From contig CACANS010000002.1 of the NCBI GenBank assembly GCA_902533945.1, positions 1-64,000 of the forward strand: a stretch of DNA of 64,000 nucleotides. Reading direction: 5' to 3'. Source of the stretch: an uncultured Pelagibacteraceae bacterium (lineage in GTDB: Bacteria; Pseudomonadota; Alphaproteobacteria; Pelagibacterales; Pelagibacteraceae). A program made the translations under genes and the position numbers. Below are positions 38,275 through 48,418 of the stretch, one piece after another (the stretch's first letter is position 1; each line of letters starts with the position of its first letter). The notes beneath the pieces are model-generated. The model did no database searches and was not told where the DNA came from. It saw only the letters and a list, made by a program, of their open reading frames with translations.

Positions 38275-40230
38275 TTAAATTTTTAATTCCTCTAAATTCT
38301 TAAACTCTTTTAATATTTCTGGGTTTGCTAAAGCCTGAATATTTTTTACATTATTACCATCTATTATACTTTTTACAGCTAATTCAACAATTTTTCCATT
38401 TTTGGTTCTTGGAATATCTTTTACACTTAATATTTTTGATGGCACATGTCTTGGGGATGCATCTTTTTTAATCAACTTTCTAAGTTTTTCTATAAGAATT
38501 TTATCGAGTGTGAATGGTTCATTTAAAACAACAAATAAAATTATTCTAACATCATTATCCCAGTTTTGGCCTACAACAATTGCCTCTTTTATTTCTTTAA
38601 AACCTTCCACAACAGAATAAATTTCTGATGTGCCTAATCTAACTCCACCTGGGTTTAAAGTGGCATCTGATCTTCCATAGATTATATATCCACCCGTTTT
38701 TTTTCTCTCTGCATAATCTCCATGATGCCATACGTTTCTATATCTATTAAAATATGCCTTTTTATATTTTAAATTTTTTTCATCATTCCAAAACCTTTTC
38801 GGCATCGAAGGAAATGAATTTTTACAAACTAATTCACCTTTTTTATTTAATATAGATTTTCCTTTTTCATTAAAAATATCTACATCCATACCAAGTCCAT
38901 TATTCTGAATTTCTCCTCTCACAACAGGACTATATATATTGCCTAAAACAAAACATGACACAATGTCGGTACCTCCAGATATTGATGCTAGATGTATATT
39001 TTTTTTAATATTTTTATAAACATAATCAAATCCATCTTCAGATAATGGAGATCCTGTAGAACAAATAGTTTTAAGATTTTTAAGTTTAAATTTTGCTTTT
39101 GCAGAAAAATTTAATTTTTTTAAAGTATCAATATACTTTGCACTTACACCAAAAAGTGTAATTTTTTCTTTTTCAATAATTTCAAATAATAGGTCTTTTT
39201 TTTTATACATTGGAAACCCATCAAATAAAACAATTGATGCTTTTGATGCAAGAGAACTTATAAGCCAATTCCACATCATCCAGCCACAAGTAGTGAAATA
39301 AAAAATATTATCTTTTGGCTTAATTTCACAATGTAGCTGATGTTCTTTTAAATGTTGCAACAAAACACCACCCACACGATGACATATGCATTTGGGTTTG
39401 CCAGTAGTGCCACTGGAATATAATATTGCCAAATCATGTTCAAAATCAAACTTTTTGAAATTGATTACATTTGCCTTATAATTTTTTATATTTTTCCAAG
39501 TAAATATCTTATGTTTTTTAATCTTCTTAAATTTTAGATAACTCTGACCAGGATAGTTTATAATTAAAACTTTCTTAATTGATTTTATCCTTTTTAAAAT
39601 TAGAGGAAGTCTATTAATAATATTTATTTCTTTTCCATTGTAATAGTATCTATCTGCAATAATTAATAATTTTGGTTGAATTTGCGAAAATCTTTCAATA
39701 ACGCCATTGATTCCAAAATCTGGAGAACATGAAGACCAAATCGCTCCTATTGCTGAGGTTGCCAAAAAGCTTTCTACACTTTCAATTATATTAGGTAAGT
39801 AAGCAGCTACTCTATCATTTTTTTTTACTCCAATTGATTGAAAAAAATTAAATACTTTATAAGTATTTAGATTTAGATTTCTCCAACTTCTATATTCCCT
39901 AAAATCATTTTCACTTATAAATGTTATAGCTTTAGAATCGTCTTTTTTTGAAAGTAAATTTTCTGCAAAATTTAACTTGGAATTTATTAAAAATTTATGT
40001 TTAAAAATATTTCCTGAAAAGTTAAATCTTAATTTTTTATATCCTTTAACATTAGCAAAATCCCAAATAGAACTCCAAAATTTTCTAGGATTTTTTAAAG
40101 TCCATTTTAATAATTTTGAATATTTTTTTGATATTTTATATTTATAATTATTTGATAAAAATTTTTCATACTTAAATAAATTAGATTTTAGTTTTATATT
40201 TTCAGATGCTTCCCACAATTTTTTAATCAT
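38275..40230 (-). CDS. Acetoacetyl-CoA synthetase (acetoacetate-CoA ligase)
   Basis: 651-aa AMP-forming ligase: LYSSGTTGKPKCICHRVGGVLLQHLKEHQLHCEIKPKDNIFYFTTCGWMMWNW; GGYIIYGRSDATLNPGGVRLGTSEIY. Confidence 0.9.
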   Translation of the reverse strand: MIKKLWEASENIKLKSNLFKYEKFLSNNYKYKISKKYSKLLKWTLKNPRKFWSSIWDFANVKGYKKLRFNFSGNIFKHKFLINSKLNFAENLLSKKDDSKAITFISENDFREYRSWRNLNLNTYKVFNFFQSIGVKKNDRVAAYLPNIIESVESFLATSAIGAIWSSCSPDFGINGVIERFSQIQPKLLIIADRYYYNGKEINIINRLPLILKRIKSIKKVLIINYPGQSYLKFKKIKKHKIFTWKNIKNYKANVINFKKFDFEHDLAILYSSGTTGKPKCICHRVGGVLLQHLKEHQLHCEIKPKDNIFYFTTCGWMMWNWLISSLASKASIVLFDGFPMYKKKDLLFEIIEKEKITLFGVSAKYIDTLKKLNFSAKAKFKLKNLKTICSTGSPLSEDGFDYVYKNIKKNIHLASISGGTDIVSCFVLGNIYSPVVRGEIQNNGLGMDVDIFNEKGKSILNKKGELVCKNSFPSMPKRFWNDEKNLKYKKAYFNRYRNVWHHGDYAERKKTGGYIIYGRSDATLNPGGVRLGTSEIYSVVEGFKEIKEAIVVGQNWDNDVRIILFVVLNEPFTLDKILIEKLRKLIKKDASPRHVPSKILSVKDIPRTKNGKIVELAVKSIIDGNNVKNIQALANPEILKEFKNLEELKI

Positions 40231-40393
40231 AAAAAAATTATATTGAATTATTGTTATTTATGTTACTGTTCATCTGATAAAATTTCAAAATGAGAACTTT
40301 TTCCTTAGTGATTCGGTCATGTTTTAGTCCATTTTTGTTCTTTAACCATAACAAGATATAGTAGGAGAAAAAAAATATATACCAAAAATAGAA

Positions 40394-42877
40394 ATGATTA
40401 AAAATAAAATAACTGCAGTTCTGGGGCCTACAAATACAGGAAAAACCTATCAAGCAATTGAAACATTACTTTCATTTGATGACGGAATGATTGGTTTTCC
40501 TCTAAGACTTCTCGCCAGGGAAGTTTATGACAAAGTTGTTAAAAGAATAGGTCAAGAAAAAGTAGCTTTAATTACTGGTGAAGAAAAAATTATACCAACT
40601 AATGCAAAATACTATCTTTGTACTGTGGAATCAATGCCGATAGATAAAAAATTGGAATTTGTTGCTGTAGACGAAATTCAAATGTGCTCAGACCATGAAA
40701 GAGGTCACATATTTACTGAAAGATTATTAAATTTAAGAGGTGAAAAGTTAACTATGTTTTTAGGTTCTCATACAATTAAAAATATTATTGAAAATCTTGA
40801 TGAAGATACAGAATTTGTAAATAAGAATAGATTGTCTAAATTATCATTTGTTGGACATAAAAAAATATCCAGAATTGATAGGAAAAGTGCAATTATAGGT
40901 TTTTCTGCAGAGGAGGTTTATGCAATTGCTGAATTGATTAGAAGACAAAAAGGAGGCGCTTCCATTGTAATGGGTTCATTAAGCCCAAAGACAAGAAATG
41001 CTCAAGTAGAATTATATCAATCTGGAGACGTGGATTATTTAGTAGCTACCGATGCTATTGGAATGGGTATAAATATGGATATAAATAGTGTCTATTTTTC
41101 TAACATAAAAAAATTCGATGGAAAAAAATCAAGAAGATTAAACCTACCTGAAATAGGTCAAATTGCTGGGAGAGCCGGAAGATTTTTAAACGATGGTTTT
41201 TTCGGTATTACTGGTGAATGTGATCAAATTAATTCTGTAGATGTAGAGCTTTTAGAAAAACATAAATTTGAAGAAATAAGAAATATTTTTTGGAGAAATT
41301 TTAATTTAAATTTTTCATCAACAGAAAATTTAATAAAATCGTTGGAAGTCAAACCACCAGCTAATTGGTTAAGAAGAATTAGTGAATGTGAGGATGAAAA
41401 AGTTTTAAAGTTTTTAATAAAAGACAAAGAAAAATATAAAATTCAAAATAATTCTAATAATTTAAAAGTATTGTGGGAATGTTGTCAAATTCCAGACTTT
41501 GTAAAAAAAACATATGGTCATCATTTACAAGTTGTAATTAAAGTTTTCGAATTTTTATCTAGTAATAATGGAAAGGTTCCCAGTGACTATATGAAAAAAC
41601 AGTTAAAGTCACTTGATAATCTTGAGGGTAATGTAGATTCCTTATCAAATAGAATAGCTAATGTTCGAACATGGTCATATGTTGCAAATAAAATTAATTG
41701 GGTAGAAAATCAAGATTATTGGATAGAAAGAACAAAATATTTAGAAGATAAACTTTCTGATAGATTGCATGAAGAATTGACAAAAACTTTTATTGATAAA
41801 AGAGCAAGTATATTGGCAAGAGGACTAAAACAAGACTCAAAATTAGAAACTAAAATAATTGACCAAAAAAAAGTTACAATAGACAATCAATTTATTGGCG
41901 AAATTGTTGGTCTTAAACTAAATCTTGATCTTAAAGCAAACACTTTAGATACAGATATTAAATCTTTAAGAAAAGCAGCAAGACAAAATATAGGTCCTGA
42001 ATTTTCTAGAAGAATAAGTGAAATAATTGACTCTAAAATGATTGTGTTGCAAGATAATTTTAAAATAACTTGGCAAAACAACACGATCGCAAAGATTATA
42101 CCAGGAAAAGATTATTTATCTCCAAAAATTGAAATTATTGTAGATGATATTATAGAATTAGAAGATCAAAAAAAATTAATTTTATTTTTAAATGATTGGT
42201 TAGAAAATAAAATTAAACAAACTCTTAAAAATCTATTTGAGCTTAAATTAATTAATGAAAAAAACTCAAATATTCGAGCTTTAGCTTACAGACTTTATGA
42301 GAATAATGGAGTAATCAAAAGAAATGAATCTAGTGATTTAATAAAAAAACTAAATAACGAGGAAAGAAAAATTTTAAGAAAATATGGAGTAAAATTTGGA
42401 AGATATCATATTTTTTTGTTCAAACTTCTTAAACCTGACGCAGTCAAATTAAGATTGACATTATGGAAAAATTTTCACAAAAAAAATATAAACTTTATTT
42501 CACCTAAATTTGGATTAAATTTTTTGCCTATAAATGAAAAAATCGACAAAAATTTAATGTTAATTTGTGGATTTGAAAATTTTAAAAATTTATATATAAG
42601 AATTGACATCTTAGAAAGATTATTTGTAAAATTGATTGAAAGTAATAAAACCAAAAATAAAGAAATAAAATTAAACCCTGAAATGCTTAATTTGCTCGGA
42701 TGTAATAAAGAAAATTTTTTAAAATTGATAGAATTGATGGATTATAAACACTTTAATAAGGAAAATGAAATTTTTCTTAAATATACTCCAAAAAAAAAAC
42801 AATTTAGAAAAGAAAGTTCAAAGCAAAAATTTTTTAACAACGCATTTAATAAACTCAAACAAATTCAATTTAAATGA
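40394..42877 (+). CDS. SUV3-like superfamily 2 helicase
   Basis: ITAVLGPTNTGKTYQAIETLL, DEIQMCSDHERGHIFTERLL, VATDAIGMGINMDI, GQIAGRAGRF. Confidence 0.88.
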   Translation: MIKNKITAVLGPTNTGKTYQAIETLLSFDDGMIGFPLRLLAREVYDKVVKRIGQEKVALITGEEKIIPTNAKYYLCTVESMPIDKKLEFVAVDEIQMCSDHERGHIFTERLLNLRGEKLTMFLGSHTIKNIIENLDEDTEFVNKNRLSKLSFVGHKKISRIDRKSAIIGFSAEEVYAIAELIRRQKGGASIVMGSLSPKTRNAQVELYQSGDVDYLVATDAIGMGINMDINSVYFSNIKKFDGKKSRRLNLPEIGQIAGRAGRFLNDGFFGITGECDQINSVDVELLEKHKFEEIRNIFWRNFNLNFSSTENLIKSLEVKPPANWLRRISECEDEKVLKFLIKDKEKYKIQNNSNNLKVLWECCQIPDFVKKTYGHHLQVVIKVFEFLSSNNGKVPSDYMKKQLKSLDNLEGNVDSLSNRIANVRTWSYVANKINWVENQDYWIERTKYLEDKLSDRLHEELTKTFIDKRASILARGLKQDSKLETKIIDQKKVTIDNQFIGEIVGLKLNLDLKANTLDTDIKSLRKAARQNIGPEFSRRISEIIDSKMIVLQDNFKITWQNNTIAKIIPGKDYLSPKIEIIVDDIIELEDQKKLILFLNDWLENKIKQTLKNLFELKLINEKNSNIRALAYRLYENNGVIKRNESSDLIKKLNNEERKILRKYGVKFGRYHIFLFKLLKPDAVKLRLTLWKNFHKKNINFISPKFGLNFLPINEKIDKNLMLICGFENFKNLYIRIDILERLFVKLIESNKTKNKEIKLNPEMLNLLGCNKENFLKLIELMDYKHFNKENEIFLKYTPKKKQFRKESSKQKFFNNAFNKLKQIQFK

Positions 42878-43302
42878 TTAATATATTTAAGAAAAATAAA
42901 GATCAGAAAGTTAAAGATAACGAAAAATATACAAATATAGCTGCTTTATTAATTCATGCTGCAAAGATTGATGAACAATATACTGAAAAAGAAAAAAAAA
43001 TAATTAAAAAAACTCTCGAAGAAATATCAAATAATAAAATAAAAGTAGATGAAGTAATTGCTGATGCTGAAAAGTTAGATAATAATTCAAATCAAATTTT
43101 AGATTTTACTAAAACGATTAAAAATCTTGAAGAAAATCTAAAAAAACAATTAGTAGAAACACTTTGGAGAATTATTTATTCCGATAAAAATGTAGACCTA
43201 TATGAATCTAGTTTAATGAGAAGATTAACTGGATTACTTTATATAGACTCAAAAACCTTAGGTGATATAAAAAATAAAATTTCTAATGAAAATTTAAAAT
43301 GA
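42874..43302 (+). CDS. TerB-like domain protein
   Basis: [29 protein letters not shown]...[32 protein letters not shown], TerB-like helical pattern; overlaps both neighbours by 4 nt. Confidence 0.75.
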
Positions 43303-43625
43303 CTTACATAGTTAATGAAAAATGTATTAAATGTAAACTTATGGATTGTGTAGAGGTATGTCCTGTAGATTGTTTTTATGAGGGAAAAAATATGCTTGTA
43401 ATTAAACCTGATGAGTGTATAGATTGTGGCGTTTGCGAACCTGAATGCCCAGTGGACGCGATAGAACCTGATACAAATGTTGGAATAGAGAAATGGTTAA
43501 AAATAAATACAAAATATTCGGAGATTTGGCCAAATATTTCAGAAAAAAAAGATCCACCTAAAGATAACGAAAATTATAAAAATGAAGAAAATAAATTTGA
43601 AAAATATTTTAAAGAAAACCTTTAA
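43299..43625 (+). CDS. fdxA: Seven-iron ferredoxin
   Basis: [47 protein letters not shown]. Confidence 0.95.
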
Positions 43626-44415
43626 AAAAAATAAAAAAAAAAGCATTAAGATTAAAAAAAAAATTAAGGTTAAAGTCAAAAAAGAAAAAAAAATTAAAAA
43701 AATACCAAAAAAAAAAATACAAAAAAATATTGCTATTAAATCAAACGAAAAATACAGAGTTTCAAAAAGTAATGAAGTAAAGCCAGAAATAAAAAAGATA
43801 AAAAAACAAGATACCCAAAAGAAAGAATACAAACCAAATCAGTATGTAGTATATCCAAAACACGGTGTTGGAAAAATTTTAAAAATTGACACTGTTATAA
43901 TTGGAGGTATAGAAGTTCAATGCTATGTGGTTAAATTTGAAAAAGATAAAGCAGAAGGTTTTGTTCCTGTAAATAAACAATTACATTTAAGACCTCTTTC
44001 TACAATAAACCAGGTTAATAAATCTATCTCGATATTAAAAAGCAAACCAAAAATTAAAAGATCAATGTGGAGTAGAAGAGCTCAAGAATACGAACAAAAA
44101 ATAAATTCTGGAAAAGTTTATGAATTAGCAGAAGTTGTAAGAGACTTAAATAAAGGTGATGATATTATGGTAGATCAATCTTATAGTGAAAGACAGCTAT
44201 TCGAGAAAGCCTATGAAAGAATTTTAAATGAATTTCAAATTGTATTAAAAGTTTCACATGAGGACACTCAAAAAAAATTAGATAAAGCTCTAAAAAGAAA
44301 CATTATTACATCTGCTTCTGAAACAAAACCTCAGACACAAACAGATAAAATACCTCATTCAGATGTAACTAATGACGAAACCTCAGAAGAGACAACAGCA
44401 ACAGAAGAAGCATAA
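43582..44415 (+). CDS. carD: CarD-family transcription factor with long Lys-rich N-terminal extension
   Basis: CarD domain [48 protein letters not shown]...[18 protein letters not shown] after a Lys-rich N-terminus of about 77 aa; overlaps fdxA by 44 nt. Confidence 0.9.
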
Positions 44416-44424
44416 GAACAAAAA

Positions 44425-44462
44425 AAAACGCTTCTCACACAAAAAGTTATGAGAAGCGTTTT
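44425..44462 (-). terminator. Intrinsic terminator, best oriented for the minus-strand small ORF
   Basis: aaaacgcttctca ... tgagaagcgtttt (13-bp arms). On the minus strand the stem is followed by a long T run; the plus side has a short T4. Confidence 0.88.
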
Positions 44463-44476
44463 AAAGAAAGAATTAT

Positions 44477-44548
44477 TTATCTTCTTCTTCTTCTTTTCTT
44501 AGCTTTTTTCTTAGCTTTTTTCTTAGCTTTTTTTCTTCTCTTAGCCAT
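44477..44548 (-). CDS. 23-aa extremely basic repeat peptide MAKRRKKAKKKAKKKAKKRRRRR
   Basis: ATG GCT AAG AGA AGA AAA AAA (GCT AAG AAA AAA)x2 GCT AAG AAA AGA AGA AGA AGA AGA TAA. Preceded by Shine-Dalgarno AAGGGAG (44555-44561) and a consensus-like promoter, followed by a terminator. Confidence 0.75.
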   Translation of the reverse strand: MAKRRKKAKKKAKKKAKKRRRRR

Positions 44549-44571
44549 CTTTAGCTCCCTTATTTGTTAAA

Positions 44572-44588
44572 CGAATCATTATGATTCG
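44572..44588. promoter_or_regulatory. Operator-like palindrome at the predicted transcript start of the basic peptide gene
   Basis: cgaatcat-t-atgattcg, a perfect 8-1-8 dyad immediately downstream of the predicted -10. Confidence 0.6.
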
Positions 44589-44598
44589 ATATAACTGA

Positions 44599-44627
44599 TT
44601 ATTATTTTTTTTAAAAAGTTATGTCAA
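44599..44627 (-). promoter_or_regulatory. Sigma70-like promoter for the basic peptide gene
   Basis: Minus strand TTGACA (44627-44622), 17-nt spacer, TAATAA (44604-44599). Confidence 0.75.
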
Positions 44628-44738
44628 TTACTTAATTTTTGTAAAATTTTATAAAAAAAAATATTTTTTATTTTATTTTTAATAATTGTAAAAAAGTTAG
44701 ATAAATTGCGATTAATAAACAATATATTTTAAATTAAT

Positions 44739-46442
44739 TTAATAAAGTTTTTCAAAAGAATTTTTATATTTTTGTATAATTTTGAATCTTTTTAACTTTA
44801 ATGTTGGTGTTAACATTCCATTTTCAATTGAAAATTTTTCATCTATTGTAAAAAATTTTTTAATATTTTCTATTTTAGATAATTTTTTATTAATTTTTTC
44901 AATTTCTTGTCTAATATTTTCTTCCGCTAATGATTTTTGTTCTTCATTAATCACTAATAATGCAACAAGATAAGGTTTATTATCTCCATAAACAATTGCT
45001 TGCTCAAATAATTCTGAATTAACTAATTCATTTTCTATTTTTAATGGTGAGATATTGTCTCCACCTGGTGTAATTAAAATATCTTTTTTTCTATCTGTTA
45101 TTTTCAAATATTTATTTTCAAAAACTCCTATATCGCCTGTATGAAGCCAGCCATTTTTCAAAACTTTATCTGTTTCCTCTTTATTGTTCCAATATCCAAG
45201 CATAACATTCTCACCTTTAACAATTATCTCTCCATCTGCAGCAATTTTTACCTCATTTCCTTTAAATGGAGGTCCTACTGTTTCCACTCTTATATCATTT
45301 ATTGGATTACAACTTACAACTGGAGATGTTTCGGTTAGACCATAACCCTGCAAAGTAGGCAAACCTATGGCATTGAGAAAGTATCCAACTTGTTTATCCA
45401 AAGCACCACCACCAGAAACGAAGGTTTTTAAAGATCCTCCAAATTGAGCCTTTATTTTTTTTCTCACTATTTTCTCTAAAATATTGTCTTGAATTTTTTC
45501 AATAAAATTCAAAGGTTCTTTTTTAATTTTTTTTAATCCAAGATTTAGCATTTTTTGAACTAGGACTTTTTTTATCCCGGTTGCTTTATTAAAACTCGCA
45601 TTAATTTTTTGATAAAGATTTTGATAAAATCTTGGAACTGCAGTCATAATTTCTGGACTACAATCATTCATATTTTTTATTAATTTCTCAATATTCTCTG
45701 CATAAAATACTCTTGCTGAAACTGTGATTTGAACAAATTGAACTGTATGTTCATAAGAATGAGATAAAGGCAACCAAGTTAAAAATCTTGTTTGATTTTT
45801 TTTAATTAATGGATCTAATATTTCTATAGCTCCTTCACAGTTATTTAAAATGCCTCCATGACTTAATATAACTCCTTTTGGATTTCCTTGAGTTCCAGAG
45901 GTGTAAATTATACATGCTGGATCTTTTCTTTTTAAACTAATTTGAAATTCTTTTTTATTGTCAGAGTCTATATCTGTAATTTTTTTATAACTTATTAACA
46001 AATTACTTTCTTCTAAATTTAATTCATCAAAATGAATTATTTTTTTTATAAAATCTTTATCTTTTGTAATATTTTTTATTTTTTTATATTGTTCTATACT
46101 TGAAACAATTACTAAAGAAGGTTTGCAGTCATTAATTATATATTCATAGTCTCTTTCAGAATAAGTTGTATATGCTGGAACAGTAATTCCATAGGATAAC
46201 ATTATTGAAAGATCAGAGATTAACCATTCTGGTCTATTTTCAGAAATTAATAAACATCTATCACCTTTTTGAATATGCTTTGATATTTCTTCTGATAAGT
46301 TCTTAATTGATTGAAAAACTTGATTCCAAGAATATTCTTGAGAATTATATAACCATTTTAAAAATATCTGATCTTTATTTTTTACTTCACAAAATCTCTT
46401 ATAAAATAACTCAATTAGATTATTTATTCGAGCAATTTCCAT
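44739..46442 (-). CDS. Long-chain acyl-CoA synthetase (AMP-forming)
   Basis: CIIYTSGTQGNPKGVILSHGG...LQGYGLTETSPVVSCNP...GWLHTGDIGVFENKYLKITDRKKDILITPGGDNISPLKIEN. Confidence 0.92.
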   Translation of the reverse strand: MEIARINNLIELFYKRFCEVKNKDQIFLKWLYNSQEYSWNQVFQSIKNLSEEISKHIQKGDRCLLISENRPEWLISDLSIMLSYGITVPAYTTYSERDYEYIINDCKPSLVIVSSIEQYKKIKNITKDKDFIKKIIHFDELNLEESNLLISYKKITDIDSDNKKEFQISLKRKDPACIIYTSGTQGNPKGVILSHGGILNNCEGAIEILDPLIKKNQTRFLTWLPLSHSYEHTVQFVQITVSARVFYAENIEKLIKNMNDCSPEIMTAVPRFYQNLYQKINASFNKATGIKKVLVQKMLNLGLKKIKKEPLNFIEKIQDNILEKIVRKKIKAQFGGSLKTFVSGGGALDKQVGYFLNAIGLPTLQGYGLTETSPVVSCNPINDIRVETVGPPFKGNEVKIAADGEIIVKGENVMLGYWNNKEETDKVLKNGWLHTGDIGVFENKYLKITDRKKDILITPGGDNISPLKIENELVNSELFEQAIVYGDNKPYLVALLVINEEQKSLAEENIRQEIEKINKKLSKIENIKKFFTIDEKFSIENGMLTPTLKLKRFKIIQKYKNSFEKLY

Positions 46443-46480
46443 AAATTAACATTAAATACTTTAAGTAATATTATTTCAAG

Positions 46481-47173
46481 TTAATCATTATATCTAAATC
46501 TTTTATTTTTAAAAATGCCATTTCCTGGAAATGATCCATATATTAGTTTAAAGTTATTTTTATTTAAATATTTTAACATTTTTTGACATTTTTTTTTTAA
46601 ATATATATTATAGGCATGACCTTCGATTAAAATGAGTTCTATATTAAATTTTTTCAAATTAATTCCTTTTAAAACATCATAATCACTTCCTTCAGCATCA
46701 ATATCGAGAAGATTTATATTTTTTTTTCTTAAAAATTTATTTAAAATAAAATCTAACGTTCTTATTTTTATTTTTTTAGATTTTGCTCTTTTTTTACTCA
46801 TTTTTGTAAAAAAATTCTTATTTAGTGAATTTACCATTGAAACATCTTTATTATAAAAAAAATATCCGTTTTTATTTTTACTTCCAACAGCTAAATTTAA
46901 ATTAACATCATTTGGTCTTGCAACTTTGAATAAATCTATGGTTTTTTTACTTATATCAATATTGATTCCTGTCCAACCATTTTTATAAAGATTTAATGTA
47001 TTTGATATTCTAATTGGATGATATGAGCCAACATCCACATAAATACCTTTCTTTTTTTGAAAGTATTTTTCTATAAATTTCTTATTTTTATTTTGATCAT
47101 TATTTTTTAACAAATTCCTTAAAGAATTTTTAAACAAATTTAATCTCAAATTTATTTCATAAAAATAATTCAT
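46481..47173 (-). CDS. FkbM-family methyltransferase
   Basis: KKKGIYVDVGSYHPIRISNTLNLYKNGWTGINIDISKKTIDLFKVARPNDVNLNLAVG...INLLDIDAEGSDYDVLKGINL. Confidence 0.88.
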   Translation of the reverse strand: MNYFYEINLRLNLFKNSLRNLLKNNDQNKNKKFIEKYFQKKKGIYVDVGSYHPIRISNTLNLYKNGWTGINIDISKKTIDLFKVARPNDVNLNLAVGSKNKNGYFFYNKDVSMVNSLNKNFFTKMSKKRAKSKKIKIRTLDFILNKFLRKKNINLLDIDAEGSDYDVLKGINLKKFNIELILIEGHAYNIYLKKKCQKMLKYLNKNNFKLIYGSFPGNGIFKNKRFRYND

Positions 47174-47186
47174 TATATTTTTTCCT

Positions 47187-47273
47187 TGGTGGGCGAAGAG
47201 AGAATCGAACTCTCACAGTATTGCTACCATTGGATTTTGAGTCCAACGCGTCTACCAATTCCGCCATTCGCCC
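47187..47273 (-). tRNA. tRNA-Leu (anticodon CAA), CCA encoded
   Basis: Reverse strand GGGCGAATGGCGGAATTGGTAGACGCGTTGGACTCAAAATCCAATGGTAGCAATACTGTGAGAGTTCGATTCTCTCTTCGCCCACCA; long variable arm, loop CTCAAAA. Confidence 0.95.
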
Positions 47274-47329
47274 ATTTAAATAATTTTTTTAAATAGTATA
47301 AGTTCAATTATTATAATAAAACAAATAAA

Positions 47330-47935
47330 ATGATAAAGCAGATTTATAAAAAAACCATAGAATTAGCAGGTCATAAAAGCTCAAAATTTTTTTTAGCAGT
47401 CATGTCTTTTATTGAAAGTTTTATATTTCCCATACCACCTGATGTCCTTATTATACCAATGACAATAGCTAAAAAAAAAGATTGGTTGAAGATTGCTTTA
47501 ATAGCTACAATTTTCTCAGTGCTTGGTGGATGTTTGGGTTATTTCATTGGTTATGTTTTTTTTAATGAAATAGGTATAAAAATATTTGAACTATATGGTG
47601 TAGACAATGCTTCCTTTTTAAAAGACAAAGTGTCCTCTGAAGGTGGTGTAATAGCTTGGATTACACTTTTAGCTATTGCCGGTTTTAGTCCACTACCATT
47701 TAAACTTTTAACAATAACTAGCGGATTTGTTCATTTTAATTTACTTCTATTTATAATGGTAAGTGCACTTACTAGAGGTTCAAGGTTTTTTTTAATTTCT
47801 TTTCTTATTGGAAATTTTGGTACAACTATGAAAAAAATTATAGAAAAAAAATTACTAAAATTTTCAATAATAATATCTATTATTTTAATTCTATTTGCTC
47901 TTTTTATTTATTATTTTTTAAAAAATTTTATTTAA
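47330..47935 (+). CDS. YqaA/DedA-like membrane protein
   Basis: FIESFIFPIPPDVLIIPMTIAKKKDW...GCLGYFIGY...FSPLPFKLLTITSGF. Confidence 0.8.
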   Translation: MIKQIYKKTIELAGHKSSKFFLAVMSFIESFIFPIPPDVLIIPMTIAKKKDWLKIALIATIFSVLGGCLGYFIGYVFFNEIGIKIFELYGVDNASFLKDKVSSEGGVIAWITLLAIAGFSPLPFKLLTITSGFVHFNLLLFIMVSALTRGSRFFLISFLIGNFGTTMKKIIEKKLLKFSIIISIILILFALFIYYFLKNFI

Positions 47936-47938
47936 GTT

Positions 47939-48418
47939 ATGAAATATATTCTTGATAAAAAAATAATTTATTTAATTACGTTAACTATATCTGTATTATC
48001 TTTGTTAACTGCAGTTTACATAGAATATTCAATTGGAATTAAACCTTGCACACTTTGCATTTATCAAAGAATTCCTTACTTATTCCTTATTTTTGTATCT
48101 TTTTTAGGTTATAATTACTCTGAAAATTTATTTTGGATAAAATTGCAAACCTTAATATTTTTAATAAGTTTTTTATTATCGGGATATCATTTTGGAATAG
48201 AAACGGGATTTTTTAATGAATTTGCAGGTTGTACTGCTCAAAATGTTAATTTATTAGACAAATCAGAAATACTAAACAGTCTTAAAAATAATACAATTAG
48301 TTGCAAAAATGTAAGTTTTAAAATAGCAGGCATGTCTCTTGCGACTATAAATATGATTATTTCTTCTATATTTGTAATTATACATCTTAAAATATTACAC
48401 AATGAAAAAAACAAATAA
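47939..48418 (+). CDS. dsbB: Disulfide bond formation protein DsbB family
   Basis: YSIGIKPCTLCIYQRIPYLFL (CxxC loop) and a second Cys pair; four TM segments. Confidence 0.85.
   Translation: MKYILDKKIIYLITLTISVLSLLTAVYIEYSIGIKPCTLCIYQRIPYLFLIFVSFLGYNYSENLFWIKLQTLIFLISFLLSGYHFGIETGFFNEFAGCTAQNVNLLDKSEILNSLKNNTISCKNVSFKIAGMSLATINMIISSIFVIIHLKILHNEKNK

Follow-up and report, generated by a model that had tools for sequence, protein, structure and literature searches.

On its minus strand, the window (the whole 64,000-nt stretch of DNA analyzed here) carries a real, monocistronic protein gene for a 23-residue polycationic peptide, MAKRRKKAKKKAKKKAKKRRRRR. The arrangement of promoter, dyad, Shine–Dalgarno (SD) sequence, ORF, and terminator recurs as a unit across the order Pelagibacterales (SAR11), in which we collected 118 distinct copies. 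With confidence slightly above even, we lean toward a joint explanation in which the product is a nucleoid-associated, polycationic peptide resembling the tail of histone H1, the promoter carries a CcrM site, and the mRNA begins in a 5′ hairpin.

A sequence-only reading of this locus had described TTGACA, TAATAA with a 17-nt spacer, a dyad, an SD sequence, a 23-codon ORF, and a terminator, and all of these elements lie on the minus strand where it had placed them (Table 1). The promoter can be parsed either as TAATAA with a 17-nt spacer or as AATAAT with an 18-nt spacer, with a predicted transcription start near 44591–44592 (minus strand). The terminator (44462–44425) has a stem of 15 pairs (counting G–U) that encloses a loop of 8 nt and is followed by a T tract, giving a predicted transcript of approximately 170 nt. 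Promoter-like matches number 10 against 9.4 expected, the promoter of this locus being the best (11/12), and terminator-like matches number 1 against 0.3 expected. Because promoter-like matches are common in such AT-rich DNA (27% G+C), the promoter by itself proves nothing, and the case rests on conservation. No ATG ORF in the 64-kb window other than that of the peptide is ≥20 aa long and contains ≥60% Lys + Arg. Rfam covariance models run over positions 40000–48000 gave no match except one tRNA (47190–47273).

Table 1. Elements of the peptide gene and its flanking genes in the window
Feature	Position	Strand	Remarks
-35 element TTGACA	44622..44627	-	TTGACATAAC in most of the genus; kept in relatives
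-10 region TAATAAT	44598..44604	-	Usually TAAAAAT in relatives; spacer 17–18
CGAATCA, containing GANTC (GAATC), a CcrM methylation site	44582..44588	-	Near +4 to +10 of the predicted start
Perfect 8-1-8 dyad CGAATCATAATGATTCG	44572..44588	-	Predicted 5′-terminal RNA hairpin
Shine–Dalgarno AAGGGAG, then conserved GCTAAAG	44555..44561	-	
ORF, 23 aa, MAKRRKKAKKKAKKKAKKRRRRR and stop	44477..44548	-	Polycationic H1-tail-like peptide
Intrinsic terminator AACGCTTCTCATA...TGTGAGAAGCGTT and T tract	44425..44462	-	Compensatory changes among relatives
carD, 277 aa, convergent neighbor	43582..44415	+	Synteny conserved; own Lys-rich N-terminal tail
Long-chain acyl-CoA synthetase, co-directional upstream neighbor	44739..46442	-	Kept in Pelagibacteraceae, not in the sister family

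A protein search of relatives with the whole peptide returned no match, the query being short and of low complexity, and DNA patterns and carD synteny were therefore used instead. The exact degenerate peptide pattern was found at 72 loci in named genomes, all of them Pelagibacteraceae, with at most one locus per genome in relatives. With carD as the anchor, we inspected the sequence convergent with it in relatives. The peptide was found at every readable same-genus locus, a few loci being cut by contig ends, and the gene extends to other Pelagibacteraceae genera and to the sister family. The collection rule demanded a TTGAC, an SD rich in purines, and a short basic ORF, and nothing more; the self-contained gene for a polybasic peptide that had been proposed from the window is conserved in the 118 distinct units collected this way. 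The expected synteny between carD and the acyl-CoA synthetase was borne out as well: carD is convergent in all 112 units having enough flank, and the synthetase lies upstream in 95/95 Pelagibacteraceae units and in 0/17 sister-family units. A phage origin was considered and rejected, as the peptide pattern had no match in IMG/VR and the unit had none in GenBank phages. An origin outside SAR11 was likewise rejected, since no small Lys/Ala-rich gene lies beside carD in 28 non-SAR11 Alphaproteobacteria loci.

Substitutions within the ORF were counted in minimum-spanning comparisons of equal-length ORFs, with a null of the same base-exchange spectrum placed at random sites. Single-base codon changes were synonymous in 38 cases and non-synonymous in 13, compared to an expected synonymous fraction of 0.30 (p = 8e-11, with the edges of the tree taken as independent). 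Lys and Arg are exchanged in 11 of the 13 replacements, and Ala/Thr and Pro/Ala in the remainder. All indels in the ORF are whole codons, often entire AKK(K) units, unlike the leader lengths, which spread evenly over the three mod 3 classes. The reading frame is unbroken in 118/118 distinct units. Disruption of the frame in loci that keep promoter and terminator, the refuting condition set by the sequence-only reading, was looked for and never found, the changes being synonymous or conservative. Synonymous excess, frame-preserving indels, and conservation of both SD and stop codon mark the ORF as protein-coding.

The length of the product varies among lineages. Short forms of 21–35 aa occur in the window's genus and in two further genera (g8 and g9), forms of 31–58 aa, several with KPAKK and PAKKRK units, occur in Pelagibacteraceae genera g5–g7, and the sister family encodes proteins of 40–91 aa (MEELKVIFAKARKKAKKKAAPKKKRKAAKRKPAKKKAAP...) at the same spot and with the same upstream element. 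The longer forms of the sister lineages carry histone-H1-like PAKKKAAP repeats, and Pro-containing units are limited to the longer forms. A single locus thereby presents the composition of H1-like proteins, with (A/P)KKK-type units in variable number over 21–91 aa, and these relatives lend substance to the histone H1 resemblance initially noted for the short peptide. Given the longer H1-like genes at the same locus, the short peptide seems to form the compact end of a series resembling H1 tails. A shrinkage toward surface-ocean lineages, whose direction we infer, is rated as plausible because the non-SAR11 Alphaproteobacteria loci read hold no outgroup copy beside carD. Searches of the 23-, 29-, 31-, 58-, and 85-aa forms against Pfam and NCBIfam, whose profiles are insensitive here, returned no family up to E = 1; consequently, we do not claim membership in a named H1-like family.

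Chlamydia Hc1 and Hc2, Pseudomonas AlgP, and Bordetella BpH1 share with the SAR11 series Lys/Ala(/Pro)-rich repeats and very high charge. Both groups also vary in size with the number of repeat units, as described for the Lys-rich units of Chlamydia Hc2 (PMC2848022), and the longer SAR11 homologs look like H1-like proteins of the Hc2/AlgP type. The SAR11 peptide differs from these proteins in being reduced, in the window's genus and its close relatives, to 21–35 aa without any other domain, and in its Arg-rich C-terminus, its CcrM-site promoter, and the lack of a Pfam match. Polybasic composition by itself fits binding to RNA, the ribosome, or polyphosphate equally well, and it is the loose length and the H1-like relatives that lead us to favor a nucleoid role over a ribosomal or polyphosphate/RNA-condensate role. 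As a probably disordered polycation of 21–35 residues, the peptide would act like a linker-histone tail: it presumably binds nucleic acid through electrostatic attraction, with chromosomal DNA the most likely partner, and could help to compact or charge-neutralize the nucleoid of a very small cell. The short peptide would then represent the most compact member of a SAR11 family that includes longer H1-like Lys/Ala/Pro repeat proteins.

Within the leader, CGAATCA is invariant in 118/118 distinct units, order-wide, and lies 38–42 nt from the start of TTGAC, except in 2/118 rows that were mis-parsed from another TTGAC. When seven genus-groups are given equal weight, its positions 0 to +6 are the sole fully invariant leader positions. 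The dyad CGAATCATAATGATTCG contains two GANTC sites in the window's genus, of which the 3′ site is lost in several genera. The proteins that would act on such a site are encoded by SAR11: RAMA, a CcrM-associated domain, scored above cutoff in 12/12 complete SAR11 genomes, with Caulobacter the sole matching control genome, and GcrA scored above cutoff in 13/13. A full 356-aa CcrM-like ORF was read at one SAR11 locus. RAMA had no match in the window's own assembly, which is 69% complete. In one complete genome (G190, C1:621780-621971), the RAMA match, unlike the remaining eleven, is partial, with a 66-aa open frame and one in-frame TAA, which may reflect a broken CcrM or an error in the record.

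GAATC and GATTC together occur 70 times in the window compared to 128 expected from trinucleotides, an approximately two-fold depletion that makes the retention of one such site in the promoter notable and that accords with the reported under-representation of GANTC in Alphaproteobacteria (PMC3973325). GACTC and GAGTC are slightly enriched in the window. Elsewhere in the window, the CGAATCA heptamer occurs only at 40315 and 10801 (both minus strand), and the copy at 40315 sits approximately 80 nt upstream of a helicase ORF start (40394). A shared promoter class of the form TTGAC-n-CGANTC was rejected, as other matches were sporadic and a reversed-pattern control was at least as frequent.

SAR11 is known to carry a CcrM homolog (PMC3973325), and GANTC in cultured Pelagibacter NP1 is reported to be 99.86% fully methylated, in a study that also hints at a link to the cell cycle (PMC9516812). 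GANTC sites conserved among orthologous promoters have previously been taken as a sign of methylation control. The Caulobacter CcrM/GcrA promoters of mipZ, podJ, and ctrA P1 resemble the SAR11 promoter in their conserved GANTC and in the presence of genes for both CcrM and GcrA; that of mipZ has two juxtaposed GANTC sites (PMC3667746). On ctrA P1, GcrA contacts the region from −35 to +7 when the promoter is fully methylated; when it is hemimethylated, the contact is of lower affinity and covers the region from +5 onward (PMC3667746). The systems also differ, as Pelagibacter, unlike Caulobacter, lacks a ctrA ortholog (PMC2877005). Moreover, GANTC sites in the activated Caulobacter cluster fall between −35 and −10 (PMC4287350), whereas the SAR11 site is at approximately +4 to +10 of the predicted start, inside the hairpin, and for this reason we judge methylation control of the peptide promoter to be about evenly balanced. 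The 5′ GANTC could instead be kept for the hairpin or the RNA end. Lying just past the predicted start, CGAATCA could tie transcription to replication via GcrA and hemimethylation. The full proposal that a minimal linker-histone tail of approximately 23 residues is made as its locus replicates, from a promoter switched by CcrM and GcrA, is a tentative one that we consider rather unlikely.

The dyad is present at exactly one place in each of 8 genomes of the window's genus and in 0/5 genomes from other genera, which have different dyads; a regulon marked by the dyad was accordingly rejected. Its 3′ half reads GATTCG in the window, GATTTG or GGTTCG elsewhere, and is a GTGAT- or AAGTGA-type arm in other genera, and the hairpin is predicted to fold with each altered 3′ half. 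Pairing holds in 99% of dyad cells across the short-form genera, compared to 22–43% for slid partners. Changes are mostly from Watson–Crick to G–U pairs, the outermost pair shifts among A–U, G–U, and G–C, and the spacing between half-sites ranges from 3 to 6 nt. Wobble pairs and variable spacing are more easily reconciled with an RNA hairpin close to the predicted 5′ end than with a dimer operator, and we prefer to interpret the dyad as a conserved CcrM/GANTC promoter site combined with a 5′ RNA hairpin. 5′-Terminal stem-loops such as that of ompA stabilize mRNA. The SAR11 hairpin is similar in that it, too, belongs to a short mRNA, which it probably protects or tunes, and sits within a few nucleotides of the predicted 5′ end; it differs in the invariant sequence of its 5′ arm, for which stabilizers have no need.

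The terminator is conserved too, with compensatory C–G, T–A, and T–G pairs at the same stem positions. In the sister family, the leaders (L110–L125) contain a second conserved element, CCTCTAACTAAACCC...GGGGGGAG, ahead of ATGGAGGA; its CCTCT is able to pair with the SD, an arrangement that resembles translational control. The main-text passages available to us from a paper on structured RNAs of Pelagibacter do not mention the peptide locus as a SAR11 RNA motif.

Other functions have to be weighed against a nucleoid role. eL41 is a protein of 25 aa, mostly Lys/Arg, and bTHX and mycobacterial bL37 are likewise tiny basic ribosomal proteins. An accessory ribosomal or rRNA-binding peptide of this style, seated in rRNA grooves, would explain why the SAR11 peptide is so close to them in size and composition (approximately 25 aa, mostly Lys/Arg), and the short unit with its good SD and the N-terminus MAKRRKKAKK, near-invariant in much of Pelagibacteraceae, are in keeping with it. 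We nevertheless regard a ribosomal role as unlikely: the number of units and the length vary freely, unlike in ribosomal proteins docked at a fixed site, and the PAKKKAAP repeats of the relatives are H1-like. The peptide has neither the fixed length nor the sequence of eL41, bTHX, or bL37, matches no Pfam family or PDB chain, and is encoded outside any ribosomal operon and away from ribosomal genes. An AlgP-like organizer of polyphosphate or RNA condensates, as opposed to a DNA packer, seems improbable. Any polyanion is bound by pure polycations, and the H1-like AlgP of Pseudomonas affects the spacing of polyphosphate granules, according to the part of that study available to us (PMC9239181); however, the GANTC-bearing promoter suggests chromosome replication and not phosphate, and neither carD nor the acyl-CoA synthetase is connected with polyphosphate.

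Two further alternatives concern the leader and the transcript. The sequence-only reading had called the dyad operator-like, and an ordinary operator could serve a dedicated repressor or, by autoregulation, the peptide itself, with methylation playing no part. A perfect inverted repeat near the predicted start would suit such a role, and so would its single occurrence in each complete genome examined from the genus, with no wider regulon, autoregulation needing one site. This interpretation is not supported by comparison with relatives and is given a low probability, as homodimers seldom tolerate a half-site spacing that varies over 3–6 nt, the 3′ half is swapped for other sequences in several genera while CGAATCA alone stays, and wobble pairs make sense for RNA, not DNA. 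A small regulatory RNA, in which the frame is incidental or secondary, would account for the discrete promoter and terminator, the conserved hairpins at both ends, and the size of the predicted transcript. The earlier suggestion of an sRNA with a coding segment is contradicted by the whole-codon indels and by the strong synonymous excess, which largely excludes it; with the frame intact in every distinct unit and only a tRNA detected by Rfam around the locus, we consider it very improbable.

No other bacterial clade in the sea is as numerous as SAR11, whose cells are very compact and have little regulation. A gene for a pure polycation that spans the whole clade, and that has probably been overlooked, would be core to nucleic-acid packaging in these cells. 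The portions available to us of the open-access SAR11 literature on histone, nucleoid-associated, or Ribo-seq topics contain no description of the gene. Its obligatory GANTC offers a concrete candidate target of CcrM and GcrA in bacteria without CtrA, and the natural series from 91 to 21 residues makes the minimum size of an H1-like protein directly testable. If the nucleoid role and its timing are as proposed, the peptide would be among the smallest chromatin proteins known, and its expression, in a lineage without CtrA, would be a bacterial parallel to the coupling of histone synthesis to replication.

Finally, CarD itself has a Lys-rich, H1-like N-terminal tail of approximately 80–120 aa in most SAR11 loci read (the window; L110–L112, L126, L128, L132, and L148), so that the H1-like peptide gene adjoins a carD encoding a similar tail. 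A few other alphaproteobacterial CarD proteins (L208, L212, and L226) also have such a tail, whereas the typical alphaproteobacterial CarD begins approximately 12–35 aa before the domain.
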